NCBI RefSeq assembly: GCF_000813745.1
Contig: NZ_JWLC01000008.1
Coordinates: 273,604-337,603 of the forward strand
Length of the DNA: 64,000 bases
Source of the DNA: Leisingera sp. ANG-M1
GTDB taxonomy: Bacteria > Pseudomonadota > Alphaproteobacteria > Rhodobacterales > Rhodobacteraceae
Direction of reading: 5' to 3'
In this document: positions 18,435-40,893 of the stretch, in pieces
Numbering within the stretch: the stretch's first letter is position 1
How the letters are laid out: every line of letters starts with the position of its first letter
Position numbers and translations under genes: made by a program
Notes under the pieces: generated by a model
The model's database searches: none
What the model was told of the DNA's origin: nothing
The model's input: the letters and a program-made list of their open reading frames with translations, nothing else

Positions 18435-18674
18435 ATGGCTTCGGACAGACAGAATCTTCAGGATGCCTTCCTGAATCACGTTCGCAAAACCAAGGTTCCA
18501 GTTACAATTTTTCTGATCAACGGGGTCAAACTGCAGGGTGTGATCACCTGGTTCGACAATTTCTGCGTGCTTCTGCGCCGCGACGGACAGTCGCAGCTGG
18601 TCTACAAGCATGCAATCTCGACCATCATGCCGGCCCAGCCGATCAGCCTCTATGAGGGTGAAGACGCCTCTTGA
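18435..18674 (+). CDS. hfq: RNA chaperone Hfq
   Basis: The 79-residue Sm-fold protein carries the Sm1 region ([23 protein letters not shown] in outline) and the Sm2 motif with YKHAIST. It forms the hexamer that pairs small RNAs with messages. The short alphaproteobacterial form lacks the long acidic C-terminal tail of E. coli Hfq. Its stop overlaps the hflX start region, and hfq-hflX order is widely conserved. Confidence 0.98.
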
Positions 18675-37977: not shown

Positions 37978-39801
37978 TCAATCGGCTTGGTACCACCAGA
38001 CATCCGGCATAAAGCCGGTGCGGTCTCCGTAGATCGGCAATGTCTCCGGGAACCGCATTTCCTTGATGTGGGCAATCCGGCCAGCATCGAACGACCAGAA
38101 TGGGATGACATAGCGCCCGGCTGTCAGGATACGGTCCAGTGCCCGTACTGCGGCGGTGAAATCCTCTGGCGCCTGGGCGGTCAGCATCGCATCGATCATC
38201 GCCTCAGCCGCCGGGCTGTCCATGCCCATCAGATTGCGGCTGCCGGGCTGGGTGACGCCGTCGCTGCCCCAGTAGTAGCGCTGTTCGTTGCCTGGGCTCA
38301 GCGACAGCTCCCGGCGATACCGGGTAAGATCGAAGCTGTAGGCGTTCTGCCGTTCGACGTATTGGGCGTTATCAACTGTTTCCGCGGACAGGGTGATCCC
38401 CAGCCGCTCCACCGCCCGGGCATAGATTTCCGAAATGGTCTTCATTTCGCTGTCGCCCTGACGGATCAGAAGGCTAAGCTCCAGCGCCTCGCCTTTTTCA
38501 TTGCGCAGAACACCGTCGGAAACATCCCACCCAGCTTCCGCCAGAAGTTTCATTGCCTTGCGCAGGTTGCTGCGGTTGCGTTTGCTGCCGTCGCCCTGGG
38601 GTAGGGTGTAACCTTCCAGCGTACCGGGCAGCAGGGTGTCTTTGAATGGCTCCAGCAGCGCCAGGACCTTGCCCTCGGCAGGCCCGGGCAGCATCCCAAG
38701 CGCTGAGCCGGAGAAATACGAGGTAATGCGCGGCTGCACGCCGCCGGTCACCGTTCCGTTGATGAATTCAAAGTTGAACGCCAAAAGCAGCGCCTCGCGC
38801 ACCCGCCAATCATCCAGCGGTGCGCGGCGGGTGTTCATTACCAGCCCTGTCATGCCCGAGGGGCGCTGGTGCGGGATCTCGCTTTTGACTACATCGCCGC
38901 GGGTGATGGCGGGGAAGTCATAGGTGCTGTCCCATTTGTCGGCGTTGAACTCTCGCACGGCGCTCAGCTCGCCTGCCTTGAAGGCTTCGAACAAAACAGT
39001 TTGGTCGCCGAAGAAATCTATACGCAGCTCATCAAAATTCTGGGTGCCGCGGCGGAACGGCAGGTCCTTGCCCCAATAGTCCGGATTCCTGGACAGGGCG
39101 ACAAAGCGGCCGGGTTCAAAATCCGCCACCGCATATGCGCCGGTGCCGATGGGGGTGCCCTCGATGGGATCGCTGCCGAAGTCCTTGCCGTCCCACTGCG
39201 CTTTCTTGAGGATCGGGCGCAGGCCGGCAATCAGCGCCAGCTCCCGGTCTGCGGTATTGAAGGTGAGGCGCAGGCTGCGCGGGCCGGTCTGTTTGATCTC
39301 CTCCACCTTGCCCCAGAAGCCCCGGTAGCGGGGGTGGCCTTTGGTGCCCAGAGTCTCGTAAGACCAGATCACATCTTCGACGGTGACTGGGCTGCCGTCA
39401 GAGAATCGGGCCTCTGCGCGCAGGGTGAATTCGACCCAGGAGCGGTCCTCGGGGACCTCAATCGATTCGGCTAAGAGACCGTAAAGCGTGAACGGCTCAT
39501 CCCAGGACCGGCCCATCAGGCTCTCATAGCCCCAGAACCTCAGCTGCCAGGGAACGGTGCCTTTCAGCGTAAACGGGTTCAGTGAATCAAAGCCGCCGGT
39601 ATTGCCGAAAACCACCTTGCCGCCCTTGGGCGCATTCGGGTTGGCATAGGGTAAAGACACAAAATCAGGTGGCAGGGCAGGGTCGCCGTACATAGCTATG
39701 CCATGAGCTGATTCTGCTTGCGCGAAATTTACGCTGCAGGCCAGGGTGATTCCGGCCAAGGCCGCGCGGTGATTCAGGAAATTTTCTATTCGCAGTTTCA
39801 C
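37978..39801 (-). CDS. Peptide ABC transporter substrate-binding protein (SBP family 5, YejA-like)
   Basis: The 607-residue protein has a signal peptide (cleavage near AQA, about residue 28). The SBP_bac_5 fold is shown by the start HGIAMYGDPALPPDF, PNAPKGGKVVFGNTGGFDSLNPF in outline, FTLRAEARFSDGSPVTVEDV and a late QRYYWGSDG. The closest functional type is YejA (microcin C/oligopeptide binding). No permease or ATPase genes are adjacent, so it is an orphan binding protein unless it borrows another transporter. Confidence 0.9.
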   Translation of the reverse strand: MKLRIENFLNHRAALAGITLACSVNFAQAESAHGIAMYGDPALPPDFVSLPYANPNAPKGGKVVFGNTGGFDSLNPFTLKGTVPWQLRFWGYESLMGRSWDEPFTLYGLLAESIEVPEDRSWVEFTLRAEARFSDGSPVTVEDVIWSYETLGTKGHPRYRGFWGKVEEIKQTGPRSLRLTFNTADRELALIAGLRPILKKAQWDGKDFGSDPIEGTPIGTGAYAVADFEPGRFVALSRNPDYWGKDLPFRRGTQNFDELRIDFFGDQTVLFEAFKAGELSAVREFNADKWDSTYDFPAITRGDVVKSEIPHQRPSGMTGLVMNTRRAPLDDWRVREALLLAFNFEFINGTVTGGVQPRITSYFSGSALGMLPGPAEGKVLALLEPFKDTLLPGTLEGYTLPQGDGSKRNRSNLRKAMKLLAEAGWDVSDGVLRNEKGEALELSLLIRQGDSEMKTISEIYARAVERLGITLSAETVDNAQYVERQNAYSFDLTRYRRELSLSPGNEQRYYWGSDGVTQPGSRNLMGMDSPAAEAMIDAMLTAQAPEDFTAAVRALDRILTAGRYVIPFWSFDAGRIAHIKEMRFPETLPIYGDRTGFMPDVWWYQAD

Positions 39802-39875
39802 AACAATCCCGCTCTGCCCTTATTTTCTTGCTTCTGCACGCTACGTGCGCTCTTTCGTCTTTTCAAACTTTTAGC

Positions 39876-39904
39876 TTGGACGAAAGCCGGAAATTGCTTA
39901 TAAA
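39876..39904 (+). promoter_or_regulatory. Near-consensus sigma70-type promoter of the intergenic sRNA
   Basis: TTGGAC (39876-39881), a 17-base spacer, and TATAAA (39899-39904). The predicted start is about 39,911. No coding region begins within 200 bases; the first downstream ATG with a ribosome-binding site is at 40,120. Confidence 0.65.
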
Positions 39905-39910
39905 GGGATC

Positions 39911-39984
39911 ACTGCTCGATAGGTTTCTTGCCTGTATGAAACCTGCCTCAATAACTAACGCCCGCCTCGTGCGGGCGTTTTTTT
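39911..39984 (+). ncRNA. Predicted small RNA with its own promoter and terminator
   Basis: The 318-base gap between the peptide-binding gene (minus) and the dehydrogenase gene (plus) contains a complete transcription unit: the promoter at 39,876-39,904, a first hairpin AGGTTTC / GAAACCT (39,921-39,944), a single-stranded stretch of about 14 bases, and a rho-independent terminator CGCCCGC-CTCGT-GCGGGCG with seven T (39,959-39,984). The RNA would be about 74 nt. The Hfq-type layout (unpaired segment, then terminator stem with U tail) suggests a trans-acting sRNA. Alternatively it is an attenuated leader of the 40,120 gene. No Rfam family is recognised by eye. Confidence 0.62.
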
Positions 39985-40119
39985 CTGGGCCGCAGATCTC
40001 CACTCCTGAATGAACCTGCCTGCGCAGCAACAGGCGGTTTGTCCGTAGTCTTACGCGTTTCTTTTGCATCTGCAGCATGGCACAGTGCGGCCAAATGCAG
40101 CCAGCTGAGGGGTAGAAAA

Positions 40120-40893
40120 ATGTCCTTTGAAGGAAAGACCGCGGTGATCACCGGATCGAATTCCGGCATTGGCCTGGGCGTTGCGCGCGAGCTTGCGCGT
40201 GCGGGCGCCAATGTGGTGCTGAACTCGTTCACTGACCGCGACGAAGATCACGCTCTGGCGGCTGAGCTCGCCCGTGAGTTCAGCGTCAAGGCCCAGTATG
40301 TCCAGGCGGATATGTCCAAGGGCGCAGACTGCCGGGCCTTGATCGAAAATGCAGGAGCCTGCGATATCCTGATCAACAATGCGGGCATCCAGCATGTGGC
40401 GCCGATTGATGAGTTCCCGCAGGACAAGTGGGAGGCGATCATTGCGATCAACATGAACTCCAACTTCCACACTATGGCAGCGGCCTTGCCCCGGATGCGT
40501 GCCGCCGGCTGGGGGCGGATCGTCAACATTGCATCGGCGCACGGGCTGACGGCCTCGCCATACAAGGCGGCGTATGTGGCAGCCAAGCACGGGGTTGTGG
40601 GGATGACCAAGACGGTGGCGCTGGAAACCGCCGAGGAGCCGATCACCTGCAATGCGGTCTGCCCGGGCTATGTGCTGACCCCGCTGGTGGAGGCGCAGAT
40701 TCCGGACACCATGGAGAAATACGGCATGGGCCGGGAAGAGGTGATCAAGAAGGTCATGCTGGAGCGCCAGCCGAGCCGGGAATTTGCCACGGTCGAGCAA
40801 CTGGGCGGCACCGCGGTTTTCCTGTGCTCGGATGCAGCGGCGCAGATCACCGGCACCACGCTGAGCGTCGATGGCGGCTGGACTGCGCTGTAG
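40120..40893 (+). CDS. bdhA: 3-hydroxybutyrate dehydrogenase (SDR family)
   Basis: The 257-residue short-chain dehydrogenase has the cofactor motif TGSNSGIGLG, the NNAGIQHVAPIDEFP segment typical of D-3-hydroxybutyrate dehydrogenase, and the triad Ser139, Tyr152, Lys156. It would oxidise 3-hydroxybutyrate, from PHB breakdown, to acetoacetate. The ATG at 40120 follows GAGGGG; the frame open to 40039 adds no family sequence. Followed by a patatin gene after a repeat-rich gap. Confidence 0.92.
   Translation: MSFEGKTAVITGSNSGIGLGVARELARAGANVVLNSFTDRDEDHALAAELAREFSVKAQYVQADMSKGADCRALIENAGACDILINNAGIQHVAPIDEFPQDKWEAIIAINMNSNFHTMAAALPRMRAAGWGRIVNIASAHGLTASPYKAAYVAAKHGVVGMTKTVALETAEEPITCNAVCPGYVLTPLVEAQIPDTMEKYGMGREEVIKKVMLERQPSREFATVEQLGGTAVFLCSDAAAQITGTTLSVDGGWTAL

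Follow-up and report, generated by a model that had tools for sequence, protein, structure and literature searches.

The question raised by this locus is whether the gap between a solute-binding protein gene and bdhA in Leisingera sp. ANG-M1 encodes an RNA of its own and, if so, with what that RNA pairs. A sequence-only reading of the window (the whole stretch of DNA that was analysed, 64,000 nucleotides) had placed a probable new Hfq-type small RNA (sRNA) there. Our analysis points to a free-standing sRNA that acts in trans by base pairing, occurs almost throughout the Rhodobacteraceae and has the mraZ/dcw leader, from which UpsM derives, as its conserved partner; we put the probability of this reading at roughly three in four. 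Computation established the gene with its promoter and covarying terminator, as well as its conservation and a complementarity to the leader that is conserved family-wide; the sRNA probably helps to control cell division in Rhodobacteraceae. The features on which the argument rests are collected in Table 1.

Table 1. Positions of the sRNA gene, its parts and the genes discussed, numbered from the first letter of the window
Feature	Position	Strand	Remarks
hfq	18435-18674	+	PF17209, E 5e-34; NCBIfam Hfq models
Family-5 solute-binding protein gene	37978-39801	-	PF00496; divergent from the sRNA, constant neighbour
Upstream box CAAACTTTTAG	39864-39874	+	Abuts the -35 element; CAAACTTTTA exact in 42/75 loci
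-35 element TTGGAC	39876-39881	+	TTG columns conserved 85-99 % (75 loci)
-10 element TATAAA	39899-39904	+	TAT columns conserved 92-97 % (75 loci)
sRNA gene, 74 nt	39911-39984	+	Predicted +1 is A39911; 3' end in the U tail
5' single-stranded CUGCUCG	39912-39918	+	Tentative second contact; complement of CGAGCAG in the dcw leader
5' hairpin	39921-39944	+	AGGUUUC (39921-39927) with GAAACCU (39938-39944), from the fold; nearly invariant
Pairing region GCCUGUAUGAAACCUGC	39930-39946	+	Antisense to GCAGGUUUCAUACAGGC in the mraZ/dcw leader (UpsM)
Terminator hairpin, 9 pairs	39957-39979	+	Followed by a U run to 39984
bdhA, 3-hydroxybutyrate dehydrogenase	40120-40893	+	TIGR01963, 361 bits, over the cut-off; downstream of the terminator

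The layout of the gene is that of a promoter, a hairpin, a linker and an intrinsic terminator. The promoter and terminator unit that the sequence-only reading had described as self-contained is present, and its coordinates coincide with those of the conserved unit, a free-standing gene whose hairpin, linker and terminator end in a U tail; the flanking genes, too, were confirmed as family-5 solute-binding protein and bdhA. The -35 and -10 elements are separated by 17 bases, and canonical spacing was kept in the 75 loci compared, L046, L048 and L063 (repeat genomes) and L173 (diverged at its 5' end) having been dropped before this count. Across these loci the columns T(-35), T(-12), A(-11) and T(-10) were each 92-99 % conserved and the +1 A was conserved in 100 %. 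The columns of the upstream box were 65-88 % conserved, and this box might act as an UP-type element, bind a regulator or form part of the promoter of the divergent gene. To call the promoter near-consensus, as had been done, was an overstatement, since TTGGAC matches the consensus TTGACA at only three of six letters (the TTG) and was for this reason absent from the list of the promoter scan. Terminator-like matches were not above chance in the same scan (5 versus 4.1 ± 1.8). The scan alone is insufficient proof of a gene, and it is conservation that settles the reality of this one. The RNA folds at -25 kcal/mol with a z-score of -4.06, a value equalled by none of 200 shuffles (75 nt folded, 39911-39985).

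With its conserved promoter, covarying terminator, lack of a coding signature and family-wide conservation, the sRNA interpretation is supported by the available sequence tests, and transcription would start at A39911. The Hfq-type label is plausible, and the RNA may bind Hfq; hfq itself lies within the window, as had been noted.

The sRNA was present in 384 of 394 sampled Rhodobacteraceae genomes (393 genera) and in 345 of the 347 that were ≥90 % complete and ≤5 % contaminated; the 10 Rhodobacteraceae genomes without a match were 70-92 % complete. The Leisingera genome itself carries a single copy. Many genera contributed to the 58 distinct copies, of which 50 agreed throughout their first 40 nt; an identical body of this length across many genera is unusual for a bacterial sRNA. 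Covarying stems had been named as a mark of a genuine sRNA, and for the terminator this was borne out: all 8 aligned pairs of the stem showed at least one double-sided compensatory change, and the T columns were invariant (identical copies collapsed, L173 left out). The 5' hairpin is nearly invariant, and therefore no covariation test is possible for it. The promoter elements, the stem and the terminator were all kept in relatives, in agreement with the sequence-only reading. A covariance search of 385 genomes across the class, run with stricter filters, gave matches in 60, of which five from Rhodobacteraceae scored 98.7-106.4 bits; the other 55 matching genomes scored ≤31.6 bits, and no convincing copy was found among them outside the family. 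A search of 24 genomes of other families likewise gave no match. It is thus near-universal in Rhodobacteraceae and apparently confined to that family.

The partner was indicated by complementarity to the mraZ/dcw leader, a target that the sequence-only reading had not named. The mraZ leader of the Leisingera genome (contig C20) contains a perfect 17-nt antisense site, GCAGGTTTCATACAGGC, located 233 nt upstream of the MraZ motif. When GCAGGTTTCATACAGG was searched at ≤1 mismatch in 27 genomes, 20 had a site in the dcw leader, 18 of them with a MraZ motif downstream and two (L144 and L145) assigned by sequence likeness only, and the reversed control matched in none of the 27. Beyond the sRNA gene and the leader these genomes held only four sites, two in the Leisingera genome and one each in G021 and G008. 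On the scale of the family, CAGGTTTCATACAGGC at ≤1 mismatch had at least two matches in 271 of 394 genomes, counted irrespective of position, where two or more normally means the sRNA gene and one site more; the control gave any match at all in 2 of 394.

Leaders were also located independently of the site, by MraZ protein homology, in 29 genomes selected because their sRNA was among the most divergent or because the site was missing, and 28 of these gave a MraZ match. This made 48 leaders in total, 28 found through MraZ alone and 20 through the site itself. A sequence within edit distance 2 of the site was present in 36 of the 48, versus 0 of 528 shuffled or reversed controls. In 43 of the 48 leaders, including 23 of the 28 found by MraZ alone, at most one of 100 dinucleotide shuffles did as well as the predicted duplex, with the genome's own sRNA used for 27 leaders and the consensus sRNA for 21; five leaders did not pass (G024, G034, G103, G073 and the truncated G061). 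A looser test paired the entire 47-nt sRNA end with leader stretches of up to 700 nt; here a number of leaders, G024, G361, G208 and G061 among them, did no better than shuffles. For the 27 leaders with an own sRNA, this paired better than the consensus in 15, equally in 9 and slightly worse in 3 (G201, G103 and G061), with a sign test at p ~0.008, most differences being small and the own piece one letter longer. Folding the two strands together yielded a gain of -21.5 kcal/mol in the Leisingera genome and -13.7 kcal/mol in an R. sphaeroides-like genome, with this first site paired.

A second contact is possible at the 5' end of the sRNA, as CGAGCAG follows the first site at a distance of 52-61 nt in 28 of the 48 leaders and a duplex is predicted there. 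This contact is tentative, because CGAGCAG belongs to a generally conserved segment of the leader. Many dcw leaders also share, outside the sRNA site, a strongly conserved block, GATCCGGCGCGC..GCGAGCAGACATCCCCCCAGG, whose function may be structural.

The leader in question is a known source of RNA. In R. sphaeroides it yields the sRNA UpsM (formerly RSs0682), and a long leader is reported for Rhodobacteraceae; UpsM is reported to be the most abundant of the Hfq-bound sRNAs, to make up ~60 % of them and to be conditionally cleaved (PMC5089854). RNase E, Hfq and the RpoHI/RpoHII regulon are all required for this cleavage, which StsR promotes by binding (PMC5089854, PMC8307010, PMC11354728). In the R. 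sphaeroides-like genome the mraZ leader is found at 694.4-694.9 kb, in line with 694,720, the coordinate published for UpsM cleavage. The predicted +1 of the sRNA is 1,444,072 (minus strand), and the gene is flanked by the binding-protein gene and a bdhA-like ORF (identified by eye). The site in UpsM, at 694,689-694,705, is paired at 16 of 17 positions, with one A-C mismatch; if the coordinate systems agree to the base, it stops 14 nt short of the RNase E end published as 694,720.

StsR (formerly RSs0827) is a close parallel. It is a 72-nt orphan sRNA of R. sphaeroides that pairs with UpsM and the dcw leader, after which RNase E cleavage and control of division follow (accessible text of PMC8307010 and PMC11354728). 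The present sRNA resembles it in being an orphan, in having almost the same length and in pairing, by prediction only, with the same leader. It differs in sequence, the complement of the StsR probe given in the accessible part of PMC11354728 being absent from it, and it occupies a separate locus in 3 of 3 Cereibacter-group genomes. On UpsM, the StsR-complementary GGGACAGTGAA is at +4 to +14, as opposed to +45 to +61 for the site of the present sRNA; the exact StsR probe was found in at least three records, the present sRNA in nearly the whole family. The sequence of the probe and the difference in locus led us to reject identity with StsR. In the R. sphaeroides-like genome (L107/L110) GGGACAGTGAA lies at 694,648-694,658, near the 5' end of UpsM, and GGACAGTGAA, a form of the StsR-complementary motif, recurs upstream of mraZ at 694,880; within the 45 nt preceding the site, GGGACAGTGAA was seen only in L093, L096, L097 and L110 among the leaders listed.

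Other published RNAs were compared in the same manner. UpsM is the proposed partner, a target RNA encoded at another locus (694.6 kb versus 1,444 kb in the R. sphaeroides-like genome), and identity with UpsM or with RSs1624 was rejected by coordinates. SorY, from that genome as well, is likewise an orphan sRNA transcribed from a promoter of its own; its 5' end is at 1,632,642 on chromosome 1 of R. sphaeroides (PMC6238624), which differs from the +1 of the present sRNA in a numbering checked through UpsM at 694.4-694.9 kb, and it too was rejected. The P. denitrificans transcripts 'Intergenic 60' (at 1,384,880) and 'Intergenic 134' are expressed sRNAs of 80 and 84 nt that are reported as conserved in many Rhodobacteraceae, the former also in Sphingomonadales and the latter in Rhizobiales and Actinobacteria (PMC5107571); the comparison with the present sRNA was by description only, from the accessible part of that paper. 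Rfam 15 gave no family at the gathering threshold for the sRNA, its only match in the window being a tRNA elsewhere. RyhB (RF00057) and Hrs13 (RF02631) scored 25.5 and 22.2 bits against gathering scores of 55 and 52, and share with it a small layout of hairpin, linker and terminator. No published description was found in the literature searched, supplementary tables and most subscription papers being beyond its reach, and a 14-letter piece of the RNA had no match in a text search of the literature. The claim that the sRNA is new therefore stands against Rfam and the literature searched, although a numbered entry for it may already exist in earlier RNA-seq lists from R. sphaeroides, R. pomeroyi or P. 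denitrificans. These comparisons suggest a new sRNA family whose partner is unusually well conserved and which is predicted to act on the same leader in a StsR-like manner while being distinct from StsR.

A mechanism can be proposed on this basis. Pairing would start at the loop GCCUGUAU and open the 3' arm of the 5' hairpin. The resulting duplex would lie a short way upstream of the RNase E site known in UpsM and would alter the cleavage or structure of UpsM, and the dcw mRNA produced by read-through would be altered likewise, such that the division genes are tuned. A point against this proposal is that the accessible portions of PMC5089854, PMC8307010 and PMC11354728 ascribe the cleavage of UpsM in R. 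sphaeroides to StsR and RpoHI/RpoHII and leave a second sRNA unmentioned. The 40-nt body is near-invariant even where the leader site is weak, which implies further targets, and the 5' arm is invariant where the tentative second site is absent, so that the dcw leader is not the sole reason for the conservation. Conserved complementarity between sRNA and leader makes the role of the long mraZ leader and of its abundant by-product UpsM directly testable; if the proposal is true, RNA control of cell division would extend across a large and ecologically important bacterial family.

Several other readings of the locus were weighed. Were the transcript a cis-acting leader or a tiny coding RNA, with a 7-codon MKPASIT-like frame, and not a regulator, the ATG found in 54 of 58 distinct copies (closed after 7 codons in 20 of these 54) would speak in its favour. 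The frame is not kept, however, with no in-frame stop before the end of the RNA in 28 of the 54 and the ATG replaced by ACG, GTG, AGG or TTG in the other 4 of 58; an SD-like motif occurs in the 15 nt before the ATG in none of the 58, the 25 nt upstream of the ATG are equally conserved, and the terminator stands between the sRNA and bdhA. We consider a coding or leader role extremely unlikely. The sequence-only reading had hinted that the divergent solute-binding protein gene might be the target, and that gene does adjoin the sRNA divergently in 73 of 73 loci, representing 70 distinct genomes (the neighbour count covered this gene only). Their strands do not overlap, however, and pairing of the consensus sRNA with the 5' region of the gene reached p≤3/60 against mononucleotide shuffles in 0 of 28 loci; the hint found no support, and regulation of this neighbour seems quite improbable. 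It is also conceivable that the sRNA is real and that GCAGGTTTCATACAGGC is a protein-binding DNA or RNA element common to both genes. The motif is nearly constant in both genes in most genera examined, and sequence identity alone therefore cannot separate pairing from such an element. Yet the motif lies on opposite strands relative to transcription, rendering the two transcripts complementary, and several genera lack the distal half of the site, the pairing there having slid toward the sRNA segment CCUGCCUCA. The leader of G410, GTCGGATTGAGGCAGGTTTCA, matches the linker of that genome's own sRNA, CAATCCGAC, and the duplex reaches -50.5 kcal/mol with the own sRNA versus -38.7 with the consensus, linker and leader having changed together; the shifted register gives a 19-nt run in G098 and a 17-nt run in G238, and G431 likewise retains complementarity in a shifted register with a changed motif. 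As complementarity is kept while the motif changes, RNA-RNA pairing is favoured, and a shared protein-binding element is improbable.

The main rival to regulation of the leader by the sRNA reverses the direction of control and predicts the same pairing. Abundant UpsM would be a sponge, a decoy holding the sRNA in growing cells, and the leader would be the regulator; cleavage of UpsM in stationary phase or under stress would then free the sRNA for other mRNAs. The abundance of UpsM among Hfq-bound sRNAs and its conditional cleavage (accessible parts of PMC5089854) are in keeping with such a role, and this direction would account for the stronger conservation of the sRNA body relative to the site in UpsM, as expected if several mRNAs are served. 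Against it, no conserved second target emerged from the antisense sites searched. The only other perfect 17-nt antisense site in the Leisingera genome (G000:C17:62127-62143, locus L003) lies ~15 nt ahead of the start codon (ATG) of a gene for a TPP-dependent, acetolactate-synthase-like enzyme, and no such extra site was present at ≤1 mismatch in the same-genus genomes G001, G003 and G005, while G008 has one elsewhere. We therefore regard the sponge as a serious but rather unlikely alternative. A more far-reaching version of the preferred reading, in which the sRNA regulates the leader, would make it the ancestral, family-wide partner of the dcw leader, clamping UpsM to either side of the point where RNase E cuts, through contacts of CUGCUCG with CGAGCAG and of GCCUGUAUGAAACCUGC with GCAGGUUUCAUACAGGC, and thereby coupling the expression of division genes to a signal. 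That signal would be read by the conserved CAAACTTTTAG-CTTGG promoter, and StsR would be a later, lineage-specific second input. As a joint claim this is put forward tentatively, at somewhat less than even odds.

Finally, a second, short match to the sRNA query was observed in G071, G061, G127, G194 and other genomes. The matches that were examined cover mostly the terminator part, and are therefore probably unrelated terminators.
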